Source: Pseudomonadota bacterium
GTDB lineage: Bacteria; Pseudomonadota; Gammaproteobacteria; Steroidobacterales; Steroidobacteraceae
Assembly: GCA_018241505.1 (NCBI GenBank)
Contig: JAFEDS010000018.1
Location: 146,541 to 210,540, forward strand
Direction of reading: 5' to 3'
DNA: 64,000 nucleotides
The translations under genes were made by a program, and so were the position numbers. The notes under the pieces were generated by a model, which was given only the letters and a program-made list of their open reading frames with translations, made no database searches and was not told where the DNA came from. Position 1 is the first letter of the stretch, and the number at the start of each line of letters is the position of its first letter. This document shows positions 10,281 through 29,306 of this stretch, piece after piece.

Positions 10281-10339
10281 ATGCAATGGCTCGACGGAAA
10301 CCCGGGACTTGCGCAAATCAGCCGCGACCGTCGCCTGCC

Positions 10340-10543: not shown

Positions 10544-10630
10544 AATGAACGGTGGGGTGGGTCCCGCGCGGCGGGGAATGGCGTTGCCGGTCAATGCAAA
10601 CGCTTTGGGAGCAGAATCGACGGGAATCTT

Positions 10631-10707
<77 letters not shown>

Positions 10708-10721
10708 CCAGACTGAGCCGC

Positions 10722-12386: not shown

Positions 12387-12391
12387 GGCAG

Positions 12392-12667
12392 CTACTTCCG
12401 TGGAACGAGGTCGAGTCCCACGAGGATCCGCTCCTCGTTGGACATGTCGCCAATGAGCCGCCGCAGCGGCAACGGGAGCTTCCTGATGAGAGTGGGGGCT
12501 GCAATGAGCTGCTCGATTCGGGCGAGGTCGGGTTGCTGGTACACGTCAATGACCTGCAGGTCATAGCGGCCTTCGAGATGCTTTCGACAGAACGCACGCA
12601 CGTTCTCGACGGCACGGGTGGACCGGGCGGTCATCCCCGTGACATACAGTTTGAGAACGTACTCCAT
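12392..12667 (-). CDS. kaiB: KaiB-family protein (second copy)
   Basis: A 91-residue thioredoxin-like KaiB domain protein. The start is ATG at 12667 (MEYVLKLYVTG); a longer frame upstream is out-of-family and overlaps the other kaiB. Typical KaiB landmarks are LKLYVTG at the first strand, a YDLQVIDVYQQP segment, the cis-proline loop APTLIRKLP and a C-terminal GDMSNEERILVGLDL. In the clock, KaiB switches fold and binds the CI ring of KaiC. It is separated by 8 bases from the other kaiB and by 5 from the kinase gene. The two copies are diverged, suggesting distinct roles. Confidence 0.93.
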   Translation of the reverse strand: MEYVLKLYVTGMTARSTRAVENVRAFCRKHLEGRYDLQVIDVYQQPDLARIEQLIAAPTLIRKLPLPLRRLIGDMSNEERILVGLDLVPRK

Positions 12668-12675
12668 GCATATTC

Positions 12676-12981
12676 CTATGCAGCGCCCATGCTGACGTCG
12701 AGGCCGGCGAGCACGCGCTGGGTGTTGGAAAGATCGCCGATGATTTTCTTCACCGGCTCGGGCATGCGCCGCACCAGCGTGGGGACCGCGAGAATCTGAT
12801 CGCCTCGTGCCAGCGCCGGGTCCCGCATCAGGTCGATCATTTCGATGCGGTAGCGGTTGGTCAGATACTCCTCGCAGATGCGCTTCAGGTTGGCAAAGGC
12901 GCGCATGCATTTCGGGGTCTGGCCTGCGACATACAGACGCAGCACAAAATCATCAGAAGAAGTTGTTTCCATGAGCGTCAT
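12676..12981 (-). CDS. kaiB: KaiB-family protein (first copy)
   Basis: A 101-residue protein starting [21 protein letters not shown]. The KaiB core is complete: [32 protein letters not shown], the cis-proline loop [11 protein letters not shown] and [19 protein letters not shown]. Its ATG overlaps the kaiC stop by four bases (ATGA), showing translational coupling with KaiC and making this the likely direct KaiC partner. A second Met at residue 4 could also be the start. Neither copy has the longer C-terminus of cyanobacterial KaiB. Confidence 0.93.
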
Positions 12982-14435
12982 CCTCTGCCGTCAGTGAGCC
13001 GCAGACCATGGTTGGTGAGCGCGAAATCATGGACACGATTGGAATGTGCCATGCCGCGCGATTTGAGAATGCGCATTGAGCGCTTGCGCTCGCGTTCGAC
13101 TTCATCGATCGTCAGAACGATCCAGGTGTCCATGAGCGAGGAAATGCCGGCCTCCGAGTCCTCGTAATCGCCGCTGGCGGCAGTGAGGCTGGTGAACAAC
13201 CCGGTCACGCCGCCTACCTTGAGGTGGTCGATGATACGCATCAACATCGCCCGTACATCGTTTTGCGTGCCTACACTCAGCAGGTTGGTCACTGCATCGA
13301 CCACTGTCACGGAGGGCGTGAATTCGCGCACTTCCAGGTACATCGAGGCCAAGTGAGTTTCCAGTCCCGCGCGCGACGGACGCTCGGCCTTGAAGTACAA
13401 CACGCCCGAGTCGATCCAAGGTTGCAGATCGATCCCGATCGAGCGCATGTTGCGAATCAGTTGCTGCGGGGACTCCTCGAAGAGGTAGTACAGGACCCGC
13501 TCGCCGCGGCGGCAGGCGGCATCCGTAAAGTGGGCCGCGAGGCTCGTCTTGCCGGTGCCCGCGGTGCCGGATACCAACACTGTGCTGCCGCGGAAATAGC
13601 CCTGACCGCCGAGCATCTGATCCAACTCCCGCACGCCGCTGGAAATGCGTTCGCCGGAGGCATTGTGCTCGAGTCCCAGCGAGGTGACGGGCAGGACACT
13701 CAGGCCGTTGCGATCGATGAGAAACGGATATTCGTTGGTGCCGTGGTGCGAGCCGCGATACTTCACAACCCGCAGCCGGCGCGTTGACACCTGTTCGGTG
13801 ACCCGATGGTCGAGCAGGATCACGGCGTCCGATACGTACTCTTCGAGTCCCTGTCGTGTCAGGGTTCCCTCGCCGCGCTCGGCGGTGATGACGGCTGTCA
13901 GACCTTTGTCCTTCAGCCAACGAAACAGGCGGCGCAGCTCGGCTCGCAGGATGTTGGCGTTGTCGAGCCCTGAAAACAGCGACTCGATGGTATCCAGCAC
14001 GATGCGTTTCGCCCCGGTGGAGCGCACGGCGTGATCCAGGCGGACGAACAGGCCCTCGAGATCGTATTCGCCGGTTTCCTCGATCTCGCTGCGCTCGATG
14101 CGGACGTAGTCAATGAACAGCTTGCCCGCTTCAACGAGCGCGTGCAGGTCGAATCCGAGGGAGGCGACGTCGCTGGCGATTTCGTCGCCGTTTTCCTCGA
14201 AGGTCATGAGCACCCCGGGCTCGTTGAACACTTCCGCGCCGTAGACCAGGAAGCTGGTTGCCAACAGAGTCTTGCCGGAGCCTGCGCCGCCGCAGATCAG
14301 AGTGGGGCGGCCGAGGGGCAGGCCCCCGTCGGTAATCTCATCGAGGCCCTGTATGCCGGTGGCGGCCTTGCGAAGGGCGCTGCGGCGCGCAGGGGTAGGG
14401 TGCGAGTGTTGCATCGTTGGGAAACAACGAAGCAA
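12978..14435 (-). CDS. kaiC: KaiC-family double-domain RecA-like ATPase/kinase
   Basis: The protein has 485 residues with two KaiC repeats. The first has Walker A GGAGSGKT (49-56), catalytic Glu80-Glu81 (TFEENGDE) and Walker B RIVLDT (144-149). The second has Walker A GTAGTGKT (290-297), catalytic Glu320-Glu321 (LFEESPQQ) and Walker B VTVVDA. The autophosphorylation position that is Ser431-Thr432 in cyanobacterial KaiC reads Ser432-Ser433 here (GISSLMDT). Both active sites look intact, so ATPase and autokinase activity are expected. It is first gene of the unit kaiC-kaiB-kaiB-kinase. There is no kaiA, as is usual outside cyanobacteria. An internal Met8 is an alternative start. Confidence 0.95.
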
Positions 14436-14529
14436 ATAACAGGCCTGACGAAGCGGCCGCGGCCCGCTTACGCCCGAGCCGCAGCCAACGCCCTGTCAGT
14501 TGGGCGCAAACGCCTGTAAAAACGACACG

Positions 14530-14955
14530 TCAGGGCGCTTTTTGCAACGCCGTCGTGATCAACTTTACCAACTCCACCGCTTCACCCTGATCCAACGAGC
14601 GCGCGGCCCAGCGCAACCCCAGGCCTTCGTTCGGTCCCGGCCGGGGGATGATGTGGAAATGCACGTGGAACACGGCCTGGTGAGCCCCCGGTCCATTGTT
14701 CTCGAGCACGTTGTACTCGCGGACGCCCGTGGCTGCCATGACCGCCCGGCAGATCCGTGGCAGGACCCTGCCCAGGGCGGCCGCCGATTCATCCGACAAC
14801 TGGTCGAGGGTCGCGGCCGGCTCCTTGGGGACCACGAGGGTATGCCCCCGGGTCAATGGGTTGATATCCAGGAAGGCGAGCACCCGGTCGTCCTCGTAGA
14901 CCCTGTGGCAGGGGATCTCGCCGGCAATGATCTTTCCAAAAATGGTGTCCGCCAT
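14530..14955 (-). CDS. HIT family nucleotide hydrolase
   Basis: A 141-residue histidine-triad protein. The active-site triad HVHFHII is present near residue 95, and the N-terminal FGKIIAGEIPCHRVYEDD and PLTRGHTLVVPK segments are classic for bacterial HinT-like proteins. Members hydrolyse purine nucleoside phosphoramidates or aminoacyl-adenylates in the cytoplasm. It is on the same strand as the kaiC operon, about 95 bases before it, but a joint transcript is unproven. Confidence 0.92.
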   Translation of the reverse strand: MADTIFGKIIAGEIPCHRVYEDDRVLAFLDINPLTRGHTLVVPKEPAATLDQLSDESAAALGRVLPRICRAVMAATGVREYNVLENNGPGAHQAVFHVHFHIIPRPGPNEGLGLRWAARSLDQGEAVELVKLITTALQKAP

Positions 14956-15065
14956 GTGACTCTCCCAGGTTTAGAGTCAAATTCTAAGGCACAGTGAGGC
15001 GGCCGGAACCGGAACATGCGCCGGTCCGGCCCGTCTATTGGACTATTCAGCACTGGGAATCGGAC

Positions 15066-15398
15066 GTGTTACAGGCCTTGGTCAGATTCTTTTCGCCCTT
15101 CGGGCTCATGAAGGATGTGAGCCGCGGCTCCAAGGAAGAGCGCATGGCGGCCTATCGCCACAATCGCCGCATGCGCGGGCACCTGCCAATCTGCATGTTG
15201 AGGTGGGCTGCGAGTTGCAGTGTCGCGGTCTTGTTGACTGCCTACTTCGACGCCCTGGGAGGCGGCGCGGCCGCTGCGGGAACGCCCAGCATTTTTGTGC
15301 TACTCGCCGCCGCGTGCGCAACCTTCATCGCCTGCGGCGTATGCGTCCTCTTCGTCACCGCTTACGTGTACTTTTATCTAGCCCACCACGATTTTTAA
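15066..15398 (+). CDS. Small membrane protein of unknown function, two transmembrane helices
   Basis: From the GTG at 15066 the frame encodes 110 residues: a basic, soluble N-terminus (RGSKEERMAAYRHNRRMR) then two hydrophobic helices (about LRWAASCSVAVLLTAYF and FVLLAAACATFIACGVCVLF). A GTG at 14994 would add 24 residues with no hydrophobic character. I do not recognise a family. It converges with the AcoR-like gene, whose stop codon is 8 bases downstream. Confidence 0.6.
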   Translation: MLQALVRFFSPFGLMKDVSRGSKEERMAAYRHNRRMRGHLPICMLRWAASCSVAVLLTAYFDALGGGAAAAGTPSIFVLLAAACATFIACGVCVLFVTAYVYFYLAHHDF

Positions 15399-15406
15399 TG
15401 TTCTGG

Positions 15407-17371
15407 CTAGCGGCGAGCTGACGACTGCCTCGACGGAAACGCTATACCTAAGCGCCGCATCTTGCGGTACAGCGTGTTGCGTCCGATGCCGAGCTTCGAG
15501 GCAACACGGCTGATATTGCCATGATGCAGATCGATCTCACGCAACAGCGCCGCCCGCTCCGCCTTCTCCAGCGGATTGAGCGATTGCGTCTCAGGGGAAG
15601 CCTCGCGGGTCTGTGTCTCGGCTACGGGCACGCCAATGCCGTAGTCGGACGGAAGGTTGCCGATGTCGAGCCGGTCGCTGGTGCGCATCGCGATCATGCC
15701 GCGCAGGACGTTCCGTAGCTGGCGGATGTTGCCCGGCCAGGAATGAGCGCACAGCGCCTCGACGAGATCCTCGCTCAAGGTGACCGAGGGTGTGGCCGCG
15801 ACTTCCTGCGCGAAAATGTGACGGATGAGGGCGGACTTGTCCTGCCGTTCGCGCAGCGGCGGTAACGGTAACACCAACCCCTGCAGGCGATAGAACAGGT
15901 CCTCGCGGAATTCCCCGCGCCGTACCTTTTCCTGCAGGTTGCCCCGGATAGCGCAAACGAGGCGCACATCCACCTTGACCGCCGGTTCGCTCCCGTGCGG
16001 CATCAGCTCCCGCTCTTCAATCACGTGCAGAAGTTGCGCTTGCAGCTCCAGGGGCAGGTCGCCGACATCATCGAGGAACAGCATGCCGCCGTTAGCCTGG
16101 GCAATCCGGCCGCGATCGTTGTCACCCGGTCCGCTGCCACCGCGTCCAAACAACTCATTCTGCATGAGCATCTCGGGCAGAGACCCGCAGTTGACCGCCA
16201 CGAACGGCTTGTCGGCTCGCTCGCTGGCTGAGTGCAGCGCCCGCGCAAAAAACTCCTTACCCGTGCCCGACTCACCGGCCAGCAGCAGGGGAACATCGCG
16301 CGATTCCAGCCGTTTGGCGGCCTGAATGTTGCGCCCCATGACCGGATCGCCGAGATCCAGCTCGTCCAGGACACTGCGGCTGATGGACGGAGCACCCCTC
16401 TCTTCATCCGGTGTGGGTTGTTGTTTGCCCGCCTGCAGGCGCTTGGATTGCGGCGCTTGCGCGACCGCGAAGAAACGCCCGCCATGACGGGTCTCGTAGA
16501 TGGGCAGGGCGTGGAATGATTTCTTCTGGCTGCGGCCCAGGAGCGCCGACAGCGAGATGTTGAAGACGCGCTCGAGCGGCGCGCCAATCAGCTCGCCCGC
16601 GCCTTTGCAACCCAACTGGAACAGCGCGTTTCGGTCGAGGGCGGCAATGGTGCCCGCCGCATCCAGCGCAATGATGCCTTCGCCCCACGTGCCGACCAGC
16701 TCCGGCCGGCTGTGAAAGCGCACCACGAAGCCATCGCGGAACTTGTTGAGGAACAGCCGGTTCTCAATCATCTGCGCCGACATGTTCACCAGCACGAGCG
16801 TGTGCTGTTGGGCGCGGTCGGATTCGCCGGACGCATCCAGTACGGCAACCAACTCGCCGCGATAGTCGAAAATGGGCGCCGCGCAACAGGTGAGGCCGGT
16901 GTTGCGCGAAAAGAAATGCTGGTCGCGGTGAATGATGAGCGGCGCGCGCTCAATCAGGCACGTGCCCATGCCGTTGGTGCCGCCGTGCTCCTCGCTCCAG
17001 ACCGCTCCGAGCACCAGCCCGGTTCTGAATGCGGCGTTGCGAAAGCTCAGGTCCCCGTAGTAATCCAGCAGCACCCCATCATGGTCGGTCAGGATGATGG
17101 AGTATCCCGAACCGGCAAGCTGGTGGTACAGGTGAGCCATCTCGGCATCGGCAAACGACACCAGCTCGAGGTTGGCTTCCTTGCGGGCCAGCCGCTCTTC
17201 GCGGGGCAACACGAACGGCTCGCGCTGCGACTGCGGATCGAGGTGATACTGACTGAGGCAGCGCACCCACGAGCGTTTGACGTAGTCGGGTGTTGCCGCA
17301 CCGTCCTCGCGTGCCGTGCCCTTCAGAACAGACTGAATGTATCGGGTGTGACTTCCAATTGGCTGGAGCAT
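15407..17371 (-). CDS. AcoR-like GAF/AAA+/Fis-type transcriptional activator lacking the GAFTGA loop
   Basis: The ATG at 17371 is preceded by GGGGGAGG and gives 654 residues. Domain order: N-terminal GAF-like sensor (about 70-220), a PAS-like segment (about 235-300), an AAA+ domain with Walker A GESGTGKE and Walker B GGMLFLDDVGDLP, and a Fis-type HTH at the end (NISRVASKLGIGRNTLYRKM). The sigma-54-contacting GAFTGA loop, expected right after ELFG, is replaced by RGGSGPGDNDRG, so contact with sigma-54 is doubtful; TyrR-type proteins with the same loss work with sigma-70. It is divergent from frmA-gfa, and I infer it controls them. Confidence 0.88.
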   Translation of the reverse strand: MLQPIGSHTRYIQSVLKGTAREDGAATPDYVKRSWVRCLSQYHLDPQSQREPFVLPREERLARKEANLELVSFADAEMAHLYHQLAGSGYSIILTDHDGVLLDYYGDLSFRNAAFRTGLVLGAVWSEEHGGTNGMGTCLIERAPLIIHRDQHFFSRNTGLTCCAAPIFDYRGELVAVLDASGESDRAQQHTLVLVNMSAQMIENRLFLNKFRDGFVVRFHSRPELVGTWGEGIIALDAAGTIAALDRNALFQLGCKGAGELIGAPLERVFNISLSALLGRSQKKSFHALPIYETRHGGRFFAVAQAPQSKRLQAGKQQPTPDEERGAPSISRSVLDELDLGDPVMGRNIQAAKRLESRDVPLLLAGESGTGKEFFARALHSASERADKPFVAVNCGSLPEMLMQNELFGRGGSGPGDNDRGRIAQANGGMLFLDDVGDLPLELQAQLLHVIEERELMPHGSEPAVKVDVRLVCAIRGNLQEKVRRGEFREDLFYRLQGLVLPLPPLRERQDKSALIRHIFAQEVAATPSVTLSEDLVEALCAHSWPGNIRQLRNVLRGMIAMRTSDRLDIGNLPSDYGIGVPVAETQTREASPETQSLNPLEKAERAALLREIDLHHGNISRVASKLGIGRNTLYRKMRRLGIAFPSRQSSARR

Positions 17372-17439
17372 TGCCTCCCCCTCATGTCTGGCTGAGCTCC
17401 GGGTGTTCGCGAATGCGATCACCCCCTTGCGATCCAGTA

Positions 17440-17455
17440 TGCCACGTGCGTGGCA
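17440..17455. promoter_or_regulatory. Perfect inverted repeat between the regulator gene and frmA, likely operator
   Basis: TGCCACG-TG-CGTGGCA forms 7-bp perfect arms with a 2-base centre. It lies 68 bases upstream of the regulator start and about 230 upstream of frmA, where an enhancer-type site for a Fis-type HTH dimer would be expected. No GG-N10-GC sigma-54 promoter was found in the 315-base gap. Confidence 0.55.
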
Positions 17456-17686
17456 CAACGTACCCGATGAGCATCGGAATCGATACACCGCCCCCGGTCA
17501 GTGGTCCTTTTTGGAACACTGGGCTTCCATGGGGCGCCGCAAACCGGCTTTTTATTGCTCCTGCGGACTATATGTATAGATTGCCGCGTTGGACTCGCCG
17601 TTCCGATGCGCGCAGACTGCGCGCGTCGTCCGGCGCGCACGCCGGCAAGCTCTCTCGGGTCAAGTCAATCTGGAAATCCACTAGCT

Positions 17687-18796
17687 ATGAAAACGAAAGC
17701 CGCAATTGCATACGCCGCGGGCAAGCCCCTCGAGGTCGTTACTTTGGATCTCGACGGCCCGAAGGCTGGCGAAGTCCTGATTCAGATCAAAGCCAGCGGC
17801 GTCTGCCACACGGACGAATTCACCCGTTCGGGCGCCGATCCGGAAGGGCTGTTTCCGGTCATTCTCGGGCACGAGGGTGCCGGCATCGTCGTTGACGTGG
17901 GGCCGGGCGTGACGAGCGTCAAGAAGGGCGACCACGTCATTCCGCTGTACACACCGGAGTGCCGGCAGTGCAAGTCCTGCACCTCGCACAAGACCAATCT
18001 CTGCACCGCGATCCGCGCTACCCAGGGCAAAGGTTTGATGCCGGATGGCACCAGCCGCTTTTCCATCGGCAAGGACAAGGTCCATCACTACATGGGCTGC
18101 TCCACATTCTCCGAGTTCACTGTGCTGCCGGAAATCGCGGTAGCGAAGATCCGTGAGGACGCGCCGTTCGAGAAGGTGTGTTACATCGGTTGCGGTGTCA
18201 CAACAGGTATTGGCGCTGTCATCAAGACGGCCAAGGTCGAAGCGGGCGCGAATGTCGTGGTGTTCGGCCTCGGCGGCATTGGTTTGAATGTCATCCAGGG
18301 CGCGAAGATGGTCGGTGCCAACAAGATCATTGGCGTGGATATCAACGACAAGCGCAAGGGCATTGCCACCAAGTTCGGTATGACCCACTTCGTGAACCCG
18401 AAGGAAGTGAAGGGCGACCTGGTCGCGCACCTGGTGGAACTAACGGGGGGTGGCGCGGACTACTCCTTTGAGTGCGTCGGCAATGTCGACCTCATGCGTC
18501 AGGCGCTCGAGTGCTGCCATCGTGGCTGGGGCACTTCGGTGATTGTTGGTGTCGCCGGCGCGGGCAAGGAGATTGCCACCCGTCCGTTCCAGTTGGTGAC
18601 CGGACGCAACTGGAAGGGTACGGCATTCGGCGGCGTCCGCGGCCGTACCGAAGTGCCGGGCATCGTTGACTGGTACATGGACAAGAAAATCAACATTGAT
18701 GATCTGATCACTCATGTGATGCCGATTGAGAAAATCAACGATGCGTTCGATCTGATGCACAAGGGCGAGTCGATTCGCACGGTCGTCACGTTCTGA
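17687..18796 (+). CDS. frmA: S-(hydroxymethyl)glutathione dehydrogenase / class III alcohol dehydrogenase
   Basis: The product has 369 residues, the usual size for class III ADH. It oxidises S-hydroxymethylglutathione (formaldehyde plus glutathione) to S-formylglutathione using NAD+. Catalytic zinc ligands are in SGVCHTDEF and GHEGAG, the structural zinc uses the four Cys in [15 protein letters not shown], and the nucleotide fold is [18 protein letters not shown]. The start is ATG at 17687; an in-frame extension upstream has no family similarity. It is followed after 33 bases by gfa, forming a formaldehyde detoxification unit; no S-formylglutathione hydrolase (fghA) is beside it. Confidence 0.95.
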
Positions 18797-18829
18797 AGTT
18801 ATATTCAAGCACCGCTAAAGGAAAAAACC

Positions 18830-19396
18830 ATGGCTGTTAAAATTCATCCTGCCGTCGACAACGGGGTCAAGCCGGGCACCGGCATCTCCGGCGGCACGCT
18901 CCATTGCAAGTGCGCAACCCAGACCGTTACCGTCAGCCTGGGCGGCGATGTTGCCCACAACCACATCTGCGGCTGCACGAAGTGCTGGAAGCCGGACGGC
19001 GTCGTTTTCTCGCAGATCGCCGTGATCGGCAAGGACAAAGTGAAAGTCACCGCCAACGAGCAGAAGCTGAAGATTGTCGACCCCGCGGCCGCCATTCAGC
19101 GCTATGCCTGCACGGGCTGCGGCGTCCACATGTACGGCCGCATCGAGAACAAGAACCATCCGTTCTACGGTCTCGACTTCGTGCATACGGAGCTGTCGAA
19201 GGAGAGCGGCTGGGCGGCGCCGACCTTCGCAGCGTTCGTATCCTCGATCATCGAGTCCGGCTTCAAGCCGGAGGGCATGGGTGAGGTGCGCGCTCGTTTG
19301 AAAGAGCTCAAGCTCGAGCCTTACGATTGCCTCAGCCCGCCGCTGATGGACGCGATCGCGACCCATACCGCCAAGGCTAAAGGCGTATTGAAATAA
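18830..19396 (+). CDS. gfa: S-(hydroxymethyl)glutathione synthase (glutathione-dependent formaldehyde-activating enzyme)
   Basis: A 188-residue zinc protein that speeds addition of glutathione to formaldehyde, feeding FrmA. The zinc-binding Cys residues are visible in [17 protein letters not shown] and [10 protein letters not shown]. Length and architecture match the Paracoccus-type Gfa. It is tightly spaced behind frmA with an AAAGGA ribosome site, and an inverted repeat follows 14 bases after the stop. Confidence 0.95.
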
Positions 19397-19410
19397 CACG
19401 TGTTAATTGA

Positions 19411-19442
19411 GGTGTCCGCGGACTGTCAGGTCCGCGGACACC
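19411..19442. repeat. Perfect 13-bp palindrome downstream of gfa
   Basis: Arms GGTGTCCGCGGAC and GTCCGCGGACACC are perfect, with a TGTCAG loop. There is no T-run, so a simple Rho-independent terminator is not supported. It may be a REP-like dispersed element, a transcript-stabilising hairpin, or a bidirectional stop between gfa and the next kinase gene. Confidence 0.6.
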
Positions 19443-19510
19443 GTGCCTGGCTTTACGCCCGCACCGCAAGAGAAATTGTGTAAGATCCCCCCATTCTTTT
19501 TCGGGGGCAG

Positions 19511-20308
19511 TTGGAATTGAGCGGAGACCCTCGCCTGCGCAGCAGTCTCCCTGACAACGAGGCGCGGCTGCGCGCCCGGATCGTGGAATTGGAGCAAATG
19601 CTCCAGGCGCGCGACGAATTTCTGTCGATTGCGGCGCACGAGCTGCGCAACCCCATGCACTCTCTGCTGCTGCAAGTGTCAGCGGCCCTCCAGATTGCGC
19701 GTCAGCAGGGCGCGAGCCCATTGGTTCGCCGCCTCGAGCGCGTGCAACACATTGTCGACCGATACGTCAAACGGGCGTCCCTGTTGCTCGATGTGGGGCG
19801 CATGAACGCGACACGCATGGAGCCGCATGTCGAGTCTGTCGATTTCGCCGAAGTCGTGCGCGAGATCGTGGAATCCTATTCTCCGGAGGCGGCGTTCAAT
19901 CGCTCGCCCCTGAGCGTAAACGCCCCGAAGTCGCTGCCCGGCCGCTGGGATCGCCTCGCACTCGAGCAGATTGTCTCCAATCTCATTTCCAACGCCATCA
20001 AGTTCGGGGCCGGTGCGGCCATCGACGTGGTGTTGGCCGGCAAACAGGACGGCAGCGTGCAATTTGAAGTTCGCGACCGTGGCATCGGAATTGCGGCAGC
20101 GGACCAGGAACGTATTTTCGGCCGCTTCGAACGAGTGCAATCACAGCCCGGTCATCCGGCCGGGGCAGGGGTGGGATTGTGGCTCGTCCGGGGTCTCGTT
20201 GAAACACACGGCGGAACGATCGATGTCAGCAGCGAACCGGCGAAAGGGGCGACGTTCACGGTCGTCCTGCCTCTGGATGCCTCTTCCAGCCGTGAGCGTG
20301 CGCCATGA
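19511..20308 (+). CDS. Minimal soluble histidine kinase of the second KaiC-type module
   Basis: A 265-residue kinase with no sensory or membrane domain: a short coiled coil, then His43 in SIAAHELRNPM, then the ATPase domain (N-box NLISNAIKFG, DRGIGIA, GVGLWLVRGL). The start is TTG at 19511 after GGGGGC. Its stop overlaps the start of the KaiC-like gene by four bases, so the two are translationally coupled. The lack of its own sensor suggests that the KaiC-like partner supplies the input. Confidence 0.88.
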   Translation: MELSGDPRLRSSLPDNEARLRARIVELEQMLQARDEFLSIAAHELRNPMHSLLLQVSAALQIARQQGASPLVRRLERVQHIVDRYVKRASLLLDVGRMNATRMEPHVESVDFAEVVREIVESYSPEAAFNRSPLSVNAPKSLPGRWDRLALEQIVSNLISNAIKFGAGAAIDVVLAGKQDGSVQFEVRDRGIGIAAADQERIFGRFERVQSQPGHPAGAGVGLWLVRGLVETHGGTIDVSSEPAKGATFTVVLPLDASSSRERAP

Positions 20309-21801
20309 CGAAGCCTGATGAGCCGGTTCCACCGCTCGCGCGCCTGCCCAGTGGCATCAGCGGGCTCGATGAGATCCTGCATGGGGGCTTCCTGGAAGGG
20401 GGTGTCTACATCCTGCAGGGCTCGCCCGGCGCCGGGAAAACGGTGCTGGCGAACGAAATCTGCTTCCGGCACGCCAGGGGCGGCGGCCGCGCGGCTTACG
20501 TGACGCTGCTGGCGGAGATGCATACCCGGCTGCTGCAGCATCTGCGCCCCATGGCGTTTTTCGACGAATCGGTCATTCCCCAGTCGCTGTATTACGTCAG
20601 TGCCTTCCACACGCTCGAGGGGGATGGGCTGAAGGGACTGCTCGATGTGCTGCGCCGGGAAATCAAGGGCCAGCGGGCCGACCTGTTGGTGGTCGATGGC
20701 CTGGTGGCCGCCCAGGAATCGGCGCCCTCGGACCGCGAGTTCAAAAAATTCATCAACGAGCTGCAGGCGCACGCCTCCGTCAGCGGCTGTACGGTGCTGT
20801 TGTTGACCAGCGGCCTGCTGCGCCAGGTCAGCGCCGAGCACACCATGGTCGATGGCGTGTTTGAGTTGGAAGACCAGTTGTTTGAGTTCCGCACCGAGCG
20901 CAGCCTGATGGTGCGCAAGTTCCGCGGCAGTGGCTTTCTGCGCGGCCGTCATTCGTTCCGTATCACGGACGCGGGCGTGACTTTCTTCCCGCGCGTGGAG
21001 GCGGTGTTTGCCACGGCGAGCCAGCCCGACACCTTGAGCGATGCCAAGATTTCTGTAGGCGTTCCGGGCATCGACAAGATGTTGTTGGGCGGGTTGCCCG
21101 CGGCCACCACCACGGGTTTGATCGGCGCCAGCGGCATCGGCAAGACCACCCTGGGCCTGCATTTCCTCTCCCATGCGTCGGCCGCCGAGCCGGGCCTGCT
21201 GTTTGGTTTCTTCGAGACCCCGGAGCGCCTGCGTTTGAAAGCCCGGCACCTCGGCCTGCAGATGGGTGCGGCGGTCGATCGCGGCGACGTTGAGATTCTG
21301 TGGCAGCCGCAACGCGAGAACGTGCTCGATGAGTTGGCCCACCGGCTGATCGGCGCCGTACGACGGCGCAAGGTGAAACGCCTGTTCATTGACGGCCTCG
21401 GCGGGTTCCTCGAGTCGGCCACCTCGCCGCAGCGCGTGAGCCGTTTCTTTTCGTGCCTGACCAATGAGCTGCGCGCTCTGGGCGCGACGACCATTTTCAC
21501 CATGGAGGTGCCTGAGATCACCGGCCCCGTGACCAGGGTGCCCTCATCGGGGGTATCGGCGTTGCTGGAAAACCTGGTGTTTCTGCGTTTCGTGGAGCGG
21601 GGCTCGATCCTGACCCGGCTGATTTCCGTACACAAGGTGAGGGACAGCGGCCATGATCCGAGCCTGCGCGAGTTCTATATCACCGACAACGGCATCCACG
21701 TCGGTGAGGCCTTTGCGGGCGTCGAAGGCCTGACGACGGGTGTTGCCCGAGAGCCCGCCAGCGCCGCGGCCACTCCTCCCCCCGCCGGTCCCAACGTCTG
21801 A
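20305..21801 (+). CDS. KaiC-like double RecA-domain ATPase with degenerate second phosphosite
   Basis: The protein has 498 residues with two KaiC-type repeats, Walker A GSPGAGKT (39-46) and GASGIGKT (274-281). The catalytic Glu-Glu pair of true KaiC is reduced to a single Glu in each half (Glu71 in TLLAEMHTR, Glu304 in FFETPERLR). The position matching the KaiC phosphoserine pair reads Ser-Ala (GVSALLENLVFL). It is thus a KaiC relative that may bind ATP but probably does not run the same phosphorylation cycle. It is sandwiched between a histidine kinase and a response regulator and likely acts as an ATP-dependent switch in that relay. Confidence 0.88.
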   Translation: MTKPDEPVPPLARLPSGISGLDEILHGGFLEGGVYILQGSPGAGKTVLANEICFRHARGGGRAAYVTLLAEMHTRLLQHLRPMAFFDESVIPQSLYYVSAFHTLEGDGLKGLLDVLRREIKGQRADLLVVDGLVAAQESAPSDREFKKFINELQAHASVSGCTVLLLTSGLLRQVSAEHTMVDGVFELEDQLFEFRTERSLMVRKFRGSGFLRGRHSFRITDAGVTFFPRVEAVFATASQPDTLSDAKISVGVPGIDKMLLGGLPAATTTGLIGASGIGKTTLGLHFLSHASAAEPGLLFGFFETPERLRLKARHLGLQMGAAVDRGDVEILWQPQRENVLDELAHRLIGAVRRRKVKRLFIDGLGGFLESATSPQRVSRFFSCLTNELRALGATTIFTMEVPEITGPVTRVPSSGVSALLENLVFLRFVERGSILTRLISVHKVRDSGHDPSLREFYITDNGIHVGEAFAGVEGLTTGVAREPASAAATPPPAGPNV

Positions 21802-21822
21802 CGCGCGGACGAACCCCAAGCC

Positions 21823-22179
21823 GTGCAAACCATTCTCGTTGTAGATGATGAGCTGGGAGCAATCGAAGTCGTCACAACGGCGCTGGAGGACGAAGGCTAT
21901 CGCGTTTTGAGCGCAGCCAACGGCCGGCATGGGCTCGAGAGATTGACGGAGGGTCCCGTGGACCTGGCCGTCATCGACTTCATGATGCCGTTGGTCGATG
22001 GCACCGCCATGGGACGCACCATGAAGGCGGACGCCGCTTTCAAGAACATCCCCATCATCATGATGAGTGCTGTCGGGGAGTCCGTGGTGCGGGAACGCTT
22101 CGACGCCTACGCGGCGTTCCTGCGAAAACCCTTCCGCATCTCTGCTTTAATAGACACCGTACGTCGCGTACTCGCCTAA
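21823..22179 (+). CDS. Single-domain response regulator
   Basis: A 118-residue receiver with the acidic pocket VVDDE (Asp8, Asp9), phosphoacceptor Asp52 in VIDFMMPLVDG, and the conserved Lys in FLRKPF. There is no output domain, so it works by protein contact, as CheY or Spo0F do. The start is GTG at 21823, 21 bases after the KaiC-like gene. It completes the kinase-KaiC-like-regulator unit. Confidence 0.92.
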   Translation: MQTILVVDDELGAIEVVTTALEDEGYRVLSAANGRHGLERLTEGPVDLAVIDFMMPLVDGTAMGRTMKADAAFKNIPIIMMSAVGESVVRERFDAYAAFLRKPFRISALIDTVRRVLA

Positions 22180-22193
22180 CCGGAGTGCTTCTC

Positions 22194-23243
22194 ATGCGTC
22201 GATGGATGTTGTTGGTCGCGGCCGTGGCGGCCTGTCAGTGGGTCTGTGCGGCGGAAACGCCTGCCGCGCGCGAAGGTGACTTTGTGTTGCGCAACTTCAA
22301 GTTCCAGTCGGGCGAGACTCTGCCCGAGGTGCGCATTCACTATCATGCCTTCGGCAAGCCCGGCAAGGACAATACCGTGTTGGTCATGCACGGCACCGGC
22401 GGCTCCGGCGCGAGCCTGATCCGGCCCGAATTCTCCGGCGAATTGTTTGGTCCGGGGCAACTTCTGGACGCCTCGCGCTACTTCATCGTGCTGCCGGATG
22501 ACATTGGGCATGGCAAGTCCAGCAAGCCGAGCGATGGGTTGCATGCGAAGTTTCCGCACTATGGTTACAACGACATGGTTGAAGCGGAATACCGCCTTTT
22601 GACGGAAGGGTTCGGCGTCAAACACGCTCGTCTGATCATGGGCACTTCCATGGGTTGTATGCACACCTGGCTGTGGGGCGAGCAACACGCCGAGTTCATG
22701 GATGCGCTCATGCCGCTGGCCTGTTTGCCGGAGCAGATTTCAGGGCGCAACCGCGTATGGCGCAAGGTCGCGGCCGATGCGATTCGCAACGATCCAACCT
22801 GGAACGGCGGCGAATACAAGACGCAACCGGCCGGGCTGCGTACCGCGATCGGGATGCTGTGGCTGGTTGGCAGCAATCCGCCGTTGCGCCAGAAGGAAGC
22901 ACCGACATTCGCCAGGGCAAATGCGGTCATCGACGACTACATCGCGACGTCGCTGCCCCATGACGATGCCAACGACCTCATTTACCAGCTCGAATCGTCA
23001 TACGACTACAACCCGGGCCCGAACCTGGAGAAGATCCGTGCGCCCCTGTTCGCGGTCAACTCGGCGGACGACCTGGTCAATCCGCCCGAGCTGGGCATCC
23101 TGGAGAAGGAAATCAAGCGCGTGCCGCACGGCAAGGCGGTGGTGATTCCCTACAGCGAGCACACCCGTGGGCACGGGTCGCACACCATCGCAGTACTGTG
23201 GAAACAGTATCTCCAGGAGTTGTTGCGGTCCTCAGATCACTGA
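22194..23243 (+). CDS. Periplasmic alpha/beta hydrolase related to homoserine O-acetyltransferase (MetX-like)
   Basis: A 349-residue protein with signal peptide (MRRWMLLVAAVAACQWVCAAE). The ATG at 22194 has CGGAG at good spacing. The fold and triad are MetX-like: oxyanion region LVMHGTGGSG, nucleophile Ser in GTSMGCMH, Asp in NSADDLVNPPE and His in TRGHGSHT. The signal peptide argues against a role in methionine synthesis; secreted relatives are usually annotated as hydrolases of unknown substrate. It starts 14 bases after the response regulator and may be the last gene of that unit. It overlaps the convergent lipoprotein gene by 7 bases. Confidence 0.8.
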   Translation: MRRWMLLVAAVAACQWVCAAETPAAREGDFVLRNFKFQSGETLPEVRIHYHAFGKPGKDNTVLVMHGTGGSGASLIRPEFSGELFGPGQLLDASRYFIVLPDDIGHGKSSKPSDGLHAKFPHYGYNDMVEAEYRLLTEGFGVKHARLIMGTSMGCMHTWLWGEQHAEFMDALMPLACLPEQISGRNRVWRKVAADAIRNDPTWNGGEYKTQPAGLRTAIGMLWLVGSNPPLRQKEAPTFARANAVIDDYIATSLPHDDANDLIYQLESSYDYNPGPNLEKIRAPLFAVNSADDLVNPPELGILEKEIKRVPHGKAVVIPYSEHTRGHGSHTIAVLWKQYLQELLRSSDH

Positions 23244-25186
23244 AACTGAACCATATTGATGCTGTGGGCAGTGAAAGTATTGGTGGCCGTGTCGTACTTG
23301 CCCACGGCTACCAGCTTCAGGATGGTGTTGGTGCCGTTCAATACCGTGTTCAGTTGGGTGAGGAAGCTGCTGTAGCTGTTGAAAAGCGCAATGCCGGTGG
23401 CGGGGCTGGCCGTTGACGCCGGGTTGCCGACGGAGAACTGCGCCGTCAGGGTCGGGTCGGCGACAATGACCGGATTGACCGCCGGGCTGGTGAGATCGAT
23501 GGTGGTTGACGCGTTAGGCACGGAAAGCAGTCCAGTCTGAACCGTGTGCGTTGCCCCCAGGGAGCCCCCGGTGATGTTCACGACGAGTCCGTTTGCATCC
23601 TTCGTGATGAACGGCGTGGCTGTGCCGTTGCCGCTCCATTCGACTGTTAGAACCTGGTCGGTGGCCGTCGGGGTCGCGACACTGTCGGCAATGAAGTCCG
23701 GCGGCGCCATGCCAAAGGGCGCTACCAGTCCGTCGAAGCGGAACACGGGGTTGGCCGCCAGCGTGCTGGTGTTCAGGCCGGTAGTACTGACCGTATAAGC
23801 GGCCGGCACTGAGTTGGTGCCCGTGAAATTCAGGGTGGCCGGGTCGAAACCGCCCAACGAAATCAGGTTGGCGGAAATGCCACTCGCCGGCGCGGAATTC
23901 TGCACGGCCCAACCGGTGGTGGGGGTCAGGCGCACGAGTCCGCCAGCGACCGTCCAGGTCGGATTGCCGGCCGCGTCCTTGACCACGGCGCCACTGGAAT
24001 CAGTGACCGCGAGCGCTTCCATATCCACTTGCTGCCCCACCGAGAGGTAGTCGGTGGTCACATTCTTGAGCTCGGGATGGCCGTCCACATTGACGACCGT
24101 CTGCGGGCCGATGGTCATCGTGAGATCGTCCTGGAAGGTGACATACTCGCCGATAGGTGTTGTGGAATTGAACGTCTCCAGCTCGGCGCCCTTGATGTGC
24201 AGAGTGGTGCCGCTGCGGGACGATATGGTTCCCGTAATTCGAACCGTCAGGACGTTCTCCACGGCCACGCCCGCGTACACCTGGGTTGCAATGAAGGTCG
24301 GCTTGACATTGTTGAGATCGCCGAACTTGCCGAAGGCCTCCACGATCGAGTTGATCTGAAGCTGGTTGAGCGCGGTGAGCCCAGCGGAGCCCTGGTAGAT
24401 CGTCCCGTTGATATTGAACACCGTGTTGCCGTCGGTCTGGACTCCGATGGCACCGACCGGCTGTCCGGCGGTATCGAAGAACGATCGGGAGTTGATTGTG
24501 AAATTGTTGTTGGCGACTTCCGTGGTCACATAGACGCCGCGGGCACGCATCGGCTTGCTGTAGTTCGGCTTCGTGGTGGCGGTCATGTAGGGACGGACCG
24601 TCACTTGGCGAGGTGACGTCGTCGTGTTTACGAGCGATGACGCGCTGAGGTCGAAATTGAAATCCAGCGGAGTCGACACGCCGTGTTTGATGACCAGCGG
24701 ATTGTTCGGGTCGAACTTGACTGTGTAGCTAACGGACGTCGCGGCGGTGCCTTTGCCCGACGTATCGACCGGGGTGACCTGCGTCGATTTGCCGTTCACG
24801 TTCATAAAGAGCAGCGCGCCGGATGGCTGGTAGAGGCTGCTCCCGTAGTTCACCGTGATCGTCGCGGAGATGTACGAGCCTTCAATGATGGCGGGGGCCC
24901 CGAACACCTCCGGCGTGTCCGCCAATTTCGTGAAGTCGACAATCTGCGGTTGCAGGAGCGGGTAGACCGGCGTGTTGTCGGTGCGCGTGAGCACGATCTG
25001 GTCGATTTCGGCGATGTAGGCCGTAAACGGCCCCGGGTTCACCGAAAACGTAATGAGCGGCGTGCCGTAGGTGAATCTGTCATTGCCGCAACTGTTCAGG
25101 AACAGGAAGGCGGCGGCCACCATGAACGCGGTGCGCAATACCGAGTGCGCGCCGGATTTGGCGCGACCGGATGAAACTGGCATCAA
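23237..25186 (-). CDS. Large lipoprotein with N-terminal DUF4382-like domain
   Basis: The protein has 649 residues. A lipobox near residue 33 (FLFLNSCGN) predicts lipid attachment to Cys. The first part (FTAYIAEIDQIVLTRTDN and VDFTKLAD) resembles DUF4382; the remainder is a string of beta-rich segments with repeated Gly/Asn/Thr, and later segments (ITGTISSRSGTTLHIKG, VGQQVDMEALAVTD) resemble DUF5666 OB-like modules. It is probably a surface or periplasmic lipoprotein. Function is unknown. A second lipoprotein of the same type lies 155 bases upstream on the same strand. Confidence 0.7.
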   Translation of the reverse strand: MMPVSSGRAKSGAHSVLRTAFMVAAAFLFLNSCGNDRFTYGTPLITFSVNPGPFTAYIAEIDQIVLTRTDNTPVYPLLQPQIVDFTKLADTPEVFGAPAIIEGSYISATITVNYGSSLYQPSGALLFMNVNGKSTQVTPVDTSGKGTAATSVSYTVKFDPNNPLVIKHGVSTPLDFNFDLSASSLVNTTTSPRQVTVRPYMTATTKPNYSKPMRARGVYVTTEVANNNFTINSRSFFDTAGQPVGAIGVQTDGNTVFNINGTIYQGSAGLTALNQLQINSIVEAFGKFGDLNNVKPTFIATQVYAGVAVENVLTVRITGTISSRSGTTLHIKGAELETFNSTTPIGEYVTFQDDLTMTIGPQTVVNVDGHPELKNVTTDYLSVGQQVDMEALAVTDSSGAVVKDAAGNPTWTVAGGLVRLTPTTGWAVQNSAPASGISANLISLGGFDPATLNFTGTNSVPAAYTVSTTGLNTSTLAANPVFRFDGLVAPFGMAPPDFIADSVATPTATDQVLTVEWSGNGTATPFITKDANGLVVNITGGSLGATHTVQTGLLSVPNASTTIDLTSPAVNPVIVADPTLTAQFSVGNPASTASPATGIALFNSYSSFLTQLNTVLNGTNTILKLVAVGKYDTATNTFTAHSINMVQFQ

Positions 25187-25341
25187 TTGGTCTCCCTTCT
25201 TCAGTAAGGCCCGGGGGGCGCATATTGCCCGGAATCGGTCGATTAGAGGTCTTATTCGCCGATCGGTTCGCTCGGATTATAGTAAATACTGTCCGCCCGC
25301 TGGGCTCCGGCGGGGATTCTTGTGGGTCCGGGCGTGGTGGA

Positions 25342-27069
25342 TCAGTCGATATTCACGGAATAACCGCGCAGGGTACCGGCCCGTAAATCCAGCGGCGTGG
25401 GATAGATCTCCCGGACGACCGTGGTTGAGGGGTTGCTGGTATTCCAGACGCGCACCGACACGTAATAGAGCCCGTCGGCAAACTGCCCGGCGGCACTGCC
25501 TCCCGGCAGGCCCGAAATCGTCAAGGTGGCGTTGGCTGTCTGGGCCAGGATGGAGTCGAGGGCGGCCGTCTGCACAATGGCCCCGTTGTGCGTGAAGATC
25601 AGCTCGCCTTTGTTGTATTTCGTCGCAGAAGCGTTGCTGATTGTAACGGGGATCACGGTCAGCACTGCTCCGGAAGTCGCGGCGAGGGTCGGCACCGCGA
25701 CCAGAGTGGCGGTCGATGTGCTCGATGCGGGGGCGGTCACAGTCGTGGTGAGCGCTCCGTCGGCGAACAGGGGCGCCGTGCCGGCGACTCTGTAGGTCGA
25801 AGCTCCTTCAGTTGGGTTCGTTGATGTCAGCGTTACATTCGAGCCGGACGCAAACGTGCCGTAGTCGATGCTGGCCGTCGATTGCGCCTGATCGGCGCTG
25901 AACGCCCTGCTGAAGGGATCTATGGGCTGGGCATCAATGAGGTACGGGACTTCGCTCGAGCCCGGAAGCGTCTGATAGAACCCGACCAGGGCACCCGCCG
26001 GCAGCGGATTGGTTGTATTCAGGTTCACAGTGAAGGAGGTGGCTGCTCGGGCTGGGATTGTCCCGATATTCACGGGCGTCGTGGATGACGGGTCCCCGAC
26101 GTTCACAGTCACGGCTTTCACAATCACCGTCGCGATTCCGGGACCGTGTATGACGAGGTCATAGCTCGTCGGTGAGGATGAGCTCGTTGATAGCGGATAG
26201 AGGGTGAACGTGCCGTCCGACTTCACTGGAGCGCTGTTCACCGCAATGTGTCGCGTGCCATCCGTACTCAGCGATTCAGCAGTCACCTGGATGTTGAGAT
26301 AGGCGGTTGTGCTCGGGCTCGTAACACCGGTCAGGCCCGACACGTCCAGCGTGCCCGATATCCCGCCTGATGCCGCCTGGTCGAACGCCACGATATGTGG
26401 ATTCAGGAGCATGGCGTTCACGTCGCTGTACGTGAACGGAACGAGGTCCTTCGCGCCATCCACGTTGATCGCGAGCTGGAAGGGTGCGGCCTGCGTCGAG
26501 CCTGTGCTCGTCGTGTTGGTGCTCGTTGTGCTTGTGCTGGTGCTGGATGTGTCGGTCGTTGAGCTGCTGCTCGATGCGACAACCGCGGTCGTATCGCCTT
26601 TCACCTGCACATTCGCCGTAACACCGAATCCTTTGTCCGGGTTCAGCAGGTCGAGGGGCACCTGGTGTGGTCCGGTGCTGTCGGTATAGTCGACTTCTGA
26701 GTTGTACGCGGCGCCCGCGGCTTGCGCCGAGCTCAGAAGAGTCTCGGATGAATCGGCGGGGATGAGCCTGACCTGCGCGTAGGTGCCGACCGGAACGTTC
26801 AGCCCTGTCGTCAGCGAGCTCACGGTGCCATCCAGCGACGAGGCGAGGTCGACGGTGGTGGGCGTCGTCAGTGGAAACTTCGTCCAGGTCGTGTCGTCAG
26901 GGCCGGCGGAGGCACTGGGGTTGAACCAGATCTCCTTGACCGACATGTACACGTGAGAATAGGCCGCCGGAACGTTCGCGGTCGTCGACACATTGGTCTT
27001 GGGCGCGCAGCCCATGAGTCCGGCCGTCACGGCCAGCAGGCCGCCAATCCATGGATTCCAGCGCGTCAT
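25342..27069 (-). CDS. DUF4382-type lipoprotein with Ser/Thr-rich tract
   Basis: The protein has 575 residues. Lipobox GLMGCAP at about residue 21. The N-terminal ~170 residues carry the DUF4382 pattern (SHVYMSVKEIWFNPSA, TTVDLASSLDG, GTYAQVRLIP, YNSEVDYTDSTG). At about residues 166-195 a tract of almost only Ser and Thr interrupts the domain, unlike its paralogue; such tracts are hypervariable. The rest is beta-rich with Ig-like segments (DGLYYVSVRVWNTSNP). It is probably a surface-exposed lipoprotein, and its function is unknown. Confidence 0.7.
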   Translation of the reverse strand: MTRWNPWIGGLLAVTAGLMGCAPKTNVSTTANVPAAYSHVYMSVKEIWFNPSASAGPDDTTWTKFPLTTPTTVDLASSLDGTVSSLTTGLNVPVGTYAQVRLIPADSSETLLSSAQAAGAAYNSEVDYTDSTGPHQVPLDLLNPDKGFGVTANVQVKGDTTAVVASSSSSTTDTSSTSTSTTSTNTTSTGSTQAAPFQLAINVDGAKDLVPFTYSDVNAMLLNPHIVAFDQAASGGISGTLDVSGLTGVTSPSTTAYLNIQVTAESLSTDGTRHIAVNSAPVKSDGTFTLYPLSTSSSSPTSYDLVIHGPGIATVIVKAVTVNVGDPSSTTPVNIGTIPARAATSFTVNLNTTNPLPAGALVGFYQTLPGSSEVPYLIDAQPIDPFSRAFSADQAQSTASIDYGTFASGSNVTLTSTNPTEGASTYRVAGTAPLFADGALTTTVTAPASSTSTATLVAVPTLAATSGAVLTVIPVTISNASATKYNKGELIFTHNGAIVQTAALDSILAQTANATLTISGLPGGSAAGQFADGLYYVSVRVWNTSNPSTTVVREIYPTPLDLRAGTLRGYSVNID

Positions 27070-27168
27070 GCTCTATTTCTATCCCGGCTATCCCAAAGCC
27101 GCATCTTAGGCGGGTCCACGTTACGAAATCGAGACCCGCAGCGCTCAATAATTGATCGGCAATTGTGA

Positions 27169-29097
27169 TTATTTGCGAGCTTGTTCCAGGCTTTCCCACC
27201 GGTCGAACTTAGCCAGCAAAAGGGCCTCAATTTGCTCGCTTCTGGCACGATCCTCGCGGATCTGCTGCGGCCCACGACGGTGGTAGTCGGGGGTGCTCAT
27301 CAGGGCGTTGAGCTCGGACTGCTCGCGCTCTAGGGCCTCGATTTCGTCGGGCAGGGCGGCCAGCTCACGTTGGTCTTTGTAGCTGAGCTTGGTCTTGGGT
27401 TTGGAGGCGCTGTCGCCACCACCACTACCGCCGAAGAGTGGATCTCCAGCCCCATCACCCGGTGCGCCGACGCCATCAACCCGCGCGGCGCCGCTGCCAC
27501 TGCCGCCACCGCGGCCCGTGTCACCTGCTGTGCTGGCGCGCTTGGTGCCGCCTCCCTTCGCCGCCCCCGCGCCCGCGGGCGCCCTGCGTTGCCGCAACCA
27601 GTCGCTGTATCCGCCCACGTACTCATGCCACGCGCCGCCGCCTTCGGCCGCCAGCGTCTGCGTCACGACATTGTCCAGGAACCGGCGGTCATGGCTGACC
27701 AGCAGCAACGTCCCCGAGTACTCCTGCAGCTTCTGCTCCAGCAGTTCCAGCGACTCGATGTCGAGGTCATTTGTAGGCTCGTCGAGCACCACGAGGTTTG
27801 CGGGTCGGGCAAACAAGCGTGCCAGCAATAGCCGGTTGCGCTCGCCGCCCGACAACATCTTCACCGGTGATTTGGCCCTCTGCGAGGGAAACAGAAAATC
27901 GGTGAGATAGCTCATGATGTGCTTGCGCTCGGTGCCGATTTCGACCCAGTCGGATCCCGGGCTGATGGTTTCCGCAACGGTCGCCTCCGGATCGAGCTGC
28001 GCGCGAAGTTGGTCGAAATAGGCGATTTGCAAGTTCGTGCCGAGCTTCATCGAGCCGGAATCGGGCTCCAACGTACCCAACAGAATGCTGATGAGTGTCG
28101 ACTTGCCCGCTCCGTTGGGGCCGATCAGGCCGACCCGATCGCCGCGCATCAGCCGCATCGACAAATCATCAATGATCTGGCGGCCGCCGAAGCTCTTGGC
28201 CACGTCTTTGAGCTCAGCGACGAGTTGTCCCGAGCGCTCGCCCGAATCGAGACTGAGCTTCACGTTGCCGAGGCGGTCGAGTCGTTCCGCACGCTCGGCA
28301 CGCAGCCGTTCCAGTCGTTTGACCCGTCCCTCATTCCGTGTCCTGCGCGCCTCCACGCCCTTGCGAATCCAAACCTCTTCCTGCGCCCAGAACTTTTCGA
28401 ACCGGCGCCTTGCAACATCCTCGGCGGCGATTTCCTGTTCCTTGCGGTCCTCGTAGGCCGCGAAATTGCCCGGGTACGAGCGCAGAATTCCCCGGTCCAG
28501 CTCCACAATGCGGGTTGTGATCCGATCCAAAAAGGCCCGGTCGTGAGTGATCACAATCGAAGCCGGCACTTTCAGCAGCAAGTCCTCGAGCCGCTCAATG
28601 CCCTCGATATCCAGATGGTTGGTGGGCTCGTCGAGCAACAAGATGTCCGGTTGCAGCGTGAGTGCGAGCGCGAGCGCTGCGCGCTTGCGTTCTCCGCCTG
28701 AGCTCGTCGCCGGTGCCCGCTCGGCATCGAGGTCGAAGCGCTGCATGAACTCCGTGAGGCGCGCTTCCATTCGCCAACGCTCGCGCTCATCGGCGTGCAT
28801 CTCATGCGCGTCCGGCTCGAGCGCTGCACGCGCCAACAGGCTTTCGCGCAGCGTTGGGCTATCCGGGAGAACAGGTTCCTGCTCGACGAACGTGACTCGC
28901 ATGCTGTCCCGACGCTGGATTTCTCCGTCATCGAGGTGAGCGAGGCCGGCGATTACCCGCAGAAGAGTGGACTTTCCCGTGCCATTACGGCCGATCAAGC
29001 CGACGCGCTCACCCGCGCGTACAGCCAGTTGGGCGCCATCCAGCAGGGGGCGATCGCCGTAAGCGAGGTGTGCATCGAGAAGTGTGATGAGAGACAT
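27169..29097 (-). CDS. uup: ABC-F family ATPase, Uup type
   Basis: A 642-residue soluble twin-ABC protein without membrane domains. First nucleotide site: Walker [13 protein letters not shown], signature SSGGERKR, Walker [12 protein letters not shown]. Second: [31 protein letters not shown]. The C-terminal coiled coil ([15 protein letters not shown]) after a Gly-rich linker is the Uup DNA-binding tail. Uup affects transposon excision and ribosome function. The start is ATG at 29097 ([19 protein letters not shown]); an upstream extension is not conserved. The Gly/Ser-rich linker before the tail is longer than usual. Confidence 0.93.
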
Positions 29098-29306
29098 ACT
29101 GCCAATTGCATCCGATTGGACGTGGCATTGCAAAGTCTGTACAGTGCCCGCACCTACCTAGGGCGCGCGGTCAGCGCCTCGTTCAACGGGCCAAGTTGCT
29201 CCCTCCCCAATTGGGCGGAGCCGGTAAATCCAACCCAAATTCCCTCGCAACTGACCGCTGCAACGCAATTGTGTTGCCTGCGAGCTCACTTAGAGGTTTT
29301 TCCTTA

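Follow-up and report, generated by a model that had tools for sequence, protein, structure and literature searches.

The stretch of DNA analysed here, referred to as the window, comprises 64,000 nucleotides (nt) of contig JAFEDS010000018.1 (positions 146,541 to 210,540, forward strand) from assembly GCA_018241505.1 of a member of the Steroidobacteraceae, and it contains at 19511-22179, on the plus strand, a unit of three genes coding for a histidine kinase, a KaiC-like ATPase and a receiver. The open reading frames (ORFs) lie exactly where a sequence-only reading had placed them, and ORFs, Pfam matches and coordinates all agree with its description of a sensorless kinase, a double KaiC-like ATPase overlapping with it by 4 nt, and a receiver-only gene. 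The kinase (19511..20308, plus strand, 265 amino acids, TTG start) is built of a HisKA domain at residues 33-84 (28.4 bits, cut-off 26.9), with the phospho-acceptor His43 at 19637-19639, and a HATPase_c domain at residues 147-256 (101.3 bits); no Pfam match that could represent a sensor domain of its own was obtained N-terminal to HisKA, where just 32 residues are available. The end of its ORF shares ATGA with the start of the ATPase gene (20305..21801, plus strand, 498 amino acids), which codes for two PF06745 stretches, and the receiver gene (21823..22179, plus strand, 118 amino acids, GTG start) begins 21 nt past the ATPase stop. The Response_reg domain of the latter scores 71.6 bits (cut-off 30.2), carries the phospho-acceptor Asp52 (21976-21978) and is accompanied by no second Pfam domain above its cut-off.

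A sister genome from the same genus, G553, has the region with an identical gene order; its three proteins show 80-85% identity to those of the window, and its kinase gene keeps the TTG start and the bases preceding it (GGGGG.AGTTGGA.TTG). The ratios of nonsynonymous to synonymous substitution rates (dN/dS) between the two genomes are 0.079 for the kinase, 0.085 for the KaiC-like protein and 0.118 for the receiver, values in line with the 0.076 of an adjoining ABC-F gene and the 0.119 of the other KaiC gene of the window; purifying selection acts on all three genes of the unit.

Relatives of the ATPase were collected from two sources. A search of 398 evenly drawn genomes of the phylum returned 13 genomes besides the own one at E <= 1.5e-91 (identity 38-51%), followed by a gap and then 7.4e-55, and contig searches returned 504 candidate stretches, the best 80 of which, a set skewed to Pseudomonas, are treated as named loci. 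Together these make up 94 loci (the window, L007-L019 from the phylum draw and the named loci L036-L115) with 91 distinct ATPase sequences, identical proteins being shared by L007, L040 and L041 and by L010 and L098; six later loci (L124 and L126-L130) were read off the ORF table, bringing the total to 100, and 18 loci (L007-L019 and L126-L130) count as evenly drawn. Genes were called with a simple codon-usage script.

A receiver lies directly downstream of the KaiC-like gene, that is on the same strand and with its domain starting within 200 nt past the ATPase ORF, in 94/94 loci and in 6/6 of the later ones (100/100), and the phospho-accepting Asp, the second Asp of the acidic pair, the Ser/Thr and the Lys are all present in the receivers of 94/94. 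Downstream of KaiC ORFs from outside the family a receiver-only gene was found in 0/26, of which 24 are testable (L002 and L006 lie at a contig edge), and a kinase follows in 13/26.

In sequence, the ATPase belongs to the KaiC superfamily (tandem PF06745, 205.6 bits against a cut-off of 26.6) and among solved structures clock KaiC proteins match it best (8zn5, E 5.7e-48), but it misses the clock KaiC cut-offs, reaching 125.8 of 546.25 bits with TIGR02655 and 182.6 of 408 bits with PRK09302. In KaiC, according to PMC2777353, E318 activates the phospho-acceptor hydroxyls of T432 and S431, E77 activates water in CI, and E319 and E78 coordinate Mg; the same paper is the source of the inter-subunit roles of K224, R226, K457 and R459. 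The window protein aligns an aromatic residue, Phe303, with E318 and Glu304 with E319 (FFETPE, 21211..21216), and Ser418-Ala419 (21556..21561) with the phosphosites S431-T432. Across the 94 family members position 303 is Y in 80, F in 11, H in 2 and T in 1, making it aromatic in 91/94, and Glu304 is present in 94/94; in a control alignment of 26 non-family KaiCs the E318 position is acidic in 26/26. The N half has a lone Glu as well (Glu71 in LLAEMH, 20515..20517; Glu in 94/94, preceded by A in 76 and S in 18), but the first Glu of this half is also missing in 22/26 of the non-family KaiCs. Because the C-half residue is acidic in all of these others and the N-half form is found in most of them, it is the loss in the C half, and not that in the N half, that marks the family, and degeneracy in both halves was discarded as a family mark.

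The single Glu per half and the Ser-Ala phosphosite noted in the sequence-only reading are thus both there, as E71, E304 and Ser418-Ala419, with the N-half form being nothing special to this protein, whereas its term "degenerate" goes too far. The Walker A Lys and the Walker B Asp of both halves, together with one Glu per half, are invariant in 94/94, the two Walker A motifs being GSPGAGKT with Lys45 (residues 39-46, 20419..20442) and GASGIGKT with Lys280 (residues 274-281, 21124..21147), and a 42-row alignment shows as invariant both Lys205-x-Arg207 (20917..20925), the counterpart of the CI inter-subunit pair K224/R226, and Lys444-x-Arg446 (21634..21642), the counterpart of K457/R459 in CII; all of these lie on the plus strand. 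Ser418 is kept in 92/94 and followed by S in 62, A in 22, G in 9 and T in 1, and in the most distant member, L019, the E318 position is taken by Thr and that of Ser418 by Ala. The KaiC-like ATPases form a distinct family, marked by the downstream receiver and by a non-acidic residue at the E318 position, and the window protein shows both marks. Having no acidic residue at this place in the C half, the family is predicted to lack a KaiC-type autokinase.

The gene upstream of the ATPase is variable. Among the 94 loci the upstream kinase was labelled bare in 15, PAS-type in 15, divergent in 3 and a receiver-kinase fusion in 1 (L038), with none detected in 60, a figure which is an upper bound, the labelling script having missed an HWE kinase at L053. 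These labels are automatic and were checked with Pfam for 3/15 bare kinases (window, L036, L044), 6/15 of the PAS type, 1/3 divergent ones (L040) and the fusion at L038. PAS, HisKA and HATPase_c were all found in 6/6 of the PAS-type kinases submitted (L060, L008, L083, L109, L069, L075). Ten upstream proteins from loci labelled as having no kinase gave one PAS-PAS-HWE kinase (that of L053), eight members of other known families (integrase, polymerase, fatty-acid enzymes, transporter, channel, peroxiredoxin and DUF2254) and one protein with no Pfam match. A kinase may also lie downstream, as six Pseudomonas loci (L059, L060, L065, L066, L071, L080) have a kinase-receiver hybrid about 140-340 nt past the receiver. 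The bare kinase is found in 3/6 of the later loci (L124, L126, L127) and hence in 18/100 overall, and the 18 evenly drawn loci hold 2 bare, 1 PAS-type and 1 divergent kinase. Since the receiver is present in 100/100 loci and the bare kinase in 18/100, with other kinase types or none elsewhere, the ATPase-receiver pair can be regarded as the core and the kinase as an exchangeable input.

A conserved multi-gene signalling unit, as the sequence-only reading had suspected, is supported by these 18 loci, in which the order with the sensorless kinase recurs under Alpha-, Beta- and Gammaproteobacteria labels; the synteny check that it had proposed therefore finds the order beyond close relatives. The named loci belong to Azospirillum, Steroidobacter, Phenylobacterium, Microvirga, Methylobacterium, Sphingomonas, many Pseudomonas, Corallococcus and others, so that the family is spread over many Proteobacteria and a few myxobacteria (Myxococcota). 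Its distribution is patchy: with the own genome counted, it is present in 1/147 genomes of the order, 2/58 of the genus and 2/369 of the class, and in 4/385 genomes of the class to which genome G405 belongs.

The bare kinases themselves are closely tied to the ATPase. When the window kinase is compared with the proteins of the loci, 15 of its 16 best non-self matches adjoin a family ATPase (14 bare kinases and the L038 fusion), the 16th being a 1007-residue kinase of Corallococcus (L064); the HELRNP box is present in 15/15 aligned bare kinases, and the 4-nt overlap between kinase and ATPase genes in 7/15 bare-kinase loci, the window counted. These matches indicate that the bare kinases are mutually orthologous. 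In a quick tree all 15 bare-kinase loci fall into a set of 36 rows with a Shimodaira-Hasegawa-like approximate likelihood ratio test (SH-aLRT) value of 100, along with 17 rows in which no kinase was detected, 3 divergent ones and 1 fusion; several long branches meet in this tree and the detail inside the 36-row set is unsure. The bare-kinase label changes at least 6 times on it, which implies that the kinase comes and goes. Two relatives of unusual build may be mentioned here. In L064 (6614-9637) the 1007-residue kinase, from Corallococcus terminator, lies about 2.5 kb past the ATPase-receiver pair and carries three GAF domains and one PAS domain, with a core resembling the bare kinase (160 bits). 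In L038 (4700-5965), from Arenibaculum, a receiver domain is fused to the N terminus of the kinase that precedes the pair.

With the receiver as an obligate neighbour and the kinase as an exchangeable one, we favour, at about an even chance, a signal running from kinase to receiver to an ATP-bound KaiC-like ring, in which the ring is the output and not the sensor. The histidine kinase would autophosphorylate and pass its phosphate on to Asp52 of the receiver, and the phosphorylated receiver would then bind the KaiC-like protein and alter its nucleotide state, its assembly or its binding of partners. This protein is expected to form a ring with ATP at both sets of subunit interfaces which, without the catalytic Glu of the C ring at the E318 position, would lack an autokinase cycle of the clock-KaiC kind and could serve some partner as an ATP-dependent switch or scaffold that hydrolyses slowly or not at all. 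A broader proposal, more tentative and clearly short of an even chance, is that the family represents a widespread class of response-regulator output, in which a free-standing receiver gates an altered KaiC double ring (with no E318-type residue and no autokinase) as a phosphorylation-controlled, ATP-bound switch, and in which kinases with varied sensors serve as inputs, including the bare kinase, perhaps fed back by the ring.

Several observations weigh against this direction of signalling. The bare kinases, with their short N-terminal stretch, no sensor, mutual orthology and frequent overlap with the ATPase gene, have the features to be expected of kinases that take their signal from a partner, for instance the ring. 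The retention of Ser418 in 92/94 suggests that its phosphorylation may still matter, and the pairing of two genes gives no direction, so that as far as the pairing goes the ring could equally well act on the receiver. The sequence-only reading had taken the ATPase for the sensing part of the relay: the KaiC-like ring would sense, for example, the ATP/ADP ratio and control the sensorless kinase, with the receiver as output. SasA of cyanobacteria is a kinase driven by KaiC, and the missing sensor domain of the window kinase, the co-inheritance of orthologous bare kinases with the ATPase (15/16 best matches) and the overlap in 7/15 loci are all in keeping with such a role. However, no upstream kinase was detected at up to 60/94 loci, elsewhere kinases often carry a PAS sensor of their own, the bare kinase occurs in just 2/18 evenly drawn loci and its label changes repeatedly on the quick tree, whereas ATPase and receiver are never found apart. 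As a general account of the family, sensing by the ring is therefore unlikely, though far from negligible, and it is chiefly at the bare-kinase loci that a ring driving the kinase has this modest chance of being correct.

The opposite action within the pair, in which the ring would sequester or protect the receiver or speed its dephosphorylation, and the receiver would either be the output or take up phosphate from other kinases as a sink, is compatible with the obligate pairing, which fits either direction, and receiver-only proteins are often shuttles or sinks. No positive sign of it was found, no search for phosphatase motifs having been made, and fusions known from archaea place KaiC on the output side (PMC5847659). 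This alternative is less probable again than sensing by the ring. A KaiC that autophosphorylates rhythmically, as a clock or hourglass, would agree with the KaiC-type sequence, with Ser at the S431 position and with a KaiB-bearing KaiC module about 6 kb off. It conflicts with the replacement of the acidic E318 residue, with Ala at the second phosphosite and with the work on Pseudomonas, which is cited in PMC11832031 as giving no evidence for circadian function. Pfam gave no KaiB match among the three proteins of the unit, the KaiB genes sitting in the separate module at 12392-14435. As the main explanation it was rejected on account of the lost C-half acidic residue and of scores far under the clock KaiC cut-offs, and it is very improbable.

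The ATPase-receiver pairing is a real signalling unit that has been glimpsed before. The arrangement is not new, contrary to the statement in the sequence-only reading that no function had been described for it: a three-component set of KaiC, histidine kinase and response regulator was described in Pseudomonas putida KT2440 in 2010 (PMC2949598), and a kaiC frequently followed by a receiver in the Ramlibacter paper of 2011 (PMC3164672). The KT2440 set shares its three component types with the window unit, and in P. putida HAI-2 the family locus L109 has a PAS-kinase, a KaiC-like gene and a receiver in this order, its kinase thus having a PAS sensor which that of the window lacks. From the described gene set the KT2440 KaiC would appear to be a member of the family of the window ATPase, an inference only, as the HAI-2 genome holds an additional, non-family double KaiC. 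KaiC proteins of environmental Pseudomonas have been linked to resistance to osmotic and oxidative stress and to biofilm production, without evidence of circadian function (Terrettaz 2023, as cited in PMC11832031).

In the Ramlibacter paper, the third of the kaiC contexts ("black") shares with the window the receiver after kaiC and poorly conserved phosphosites, the SA type included. That group is called heterogeneous there, whereas in the window family the constant pairing is tied to a sequence signature, and no mention of an upstream bare kinase, which the window does have, was found in the account of the black context. The KaiC2-KaiR2 pair of Methylobacterium extorquens AM1 (review PMC8069551) is, by its description, likewise a proteobacterial KaiC with a regulator gene, whose own cluster has no KaiB, and with one conserved Ser; KaiC2 is phosphorylated on its Ser, whereas the window protein has no E318-type residue. 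KaiC-REC fusions occur in six genera of Methanosarcinaceae, where they are grouped with the response regulators whose output domains are enzymatic (PMC5847659). They resemble the window unit in coupling a receiver to a KaiC-type ATPase, but are single archaeal chains, while the family described here consists of two genes and is found in Proteobacteria and Myxococcota. In the KaiC-SasA-RpaA system of cyanobacteria a histidine kinase, a KaiC ring and a response regulator come together as in the window unit; of these, SasA is equipped with a KaiB-like sensor and RpaA with a DNA-binding domain. By Pfam, the window kinase and the window regulator have neither of these. Judged by title, none of the literature matches listed is a biochemical study of the ATPase-receiver pair, subscription journals being mostly outside the search.

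Non-cyanobacterial KaiC homologs are widespread and their mechanism is mostly unclear. A receiver as the one constant neighbour reduces the question of what non-clock KaiC proteins do to a single pairwise interaction, and signalling from kinase to receiver to ring, if true, would make this family an example of a clock-type ATPase rewired into two-component signalling.

The unit is followed on the plus strand by a gene for an alpha/beta hydrolase of the PRK06489 family (22194..23243), whose ATG lies 14 nt past the receiver stop and whose product is 75% identical in the sister genome. It is possibly cotranscribed with the unit but is outside the conserved module; among genera the genes 3' of the receiver, which are unannotated in the context table, vary in size and strand. 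In the own genome (assembly 93.9% complete) only two ORFs have two PF06745-matched halves, both within the window. The other one, at 12978-14435 on the minus strand, is flanked by two KaiB genes and a PAS-kinase-receiver hybrid, forming a standard kaiC-kaiB-kaiB-(PAS-HK-REC) module (10722-14435, minus strand; HK, histidine kinase; REC, receiver) about 6 kb from the three-gene unit, and its KaiC keeps the Glu-Glu pairs, has Ser-Ser at the phosphosites and passes PRK09302 (675.6) but not TIGR02655 (338). A second, non-family KaiC also lies near the ATPase-receiver pair in three Pseudomonas loci (L094, L108, L111), followed in L094 and L108 by a HisKA kinase.

The own assembly (G000) is 7.9 Mb in size, against 1.8-5.1 Mb for most genomes of the genus, and has a contamination value of 5.67%. 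Contamination as the source of the unit is unlikely, since a genome of the same genus has the ABC-F protein at 89% identity (best stretch) and the region in the same order, even though the trait is rare in the genus. A defence system was rejected on the weakness of the PADLOC-DB matches (ATPase, mad8 1.2e-07 and PDC-S73 0.0003; receiver, PD-T4-6 3.1e-06; kinase, none), which are taken as generic P-loop and receiver similarity. An RNA element was likewise set aside, as within 10000-30000 the Rfam threshold was reached by tRNA alone. A 13-bp inverted repeat, perfect and with a loop of 6 nt, lies between gfa and the kinase gene (19411-19442); the genome holds a single exact copy of it and the sister genome does not keep it, and it was therefore not retained as a regulatory repeat. 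A promoter scan gave 1 site against 1.0 expected by chance. The sister genome does keep AAATTGTGTAAGATC, a stretch upstream of the kinase start (19473-19487) which could belong to a promoter.

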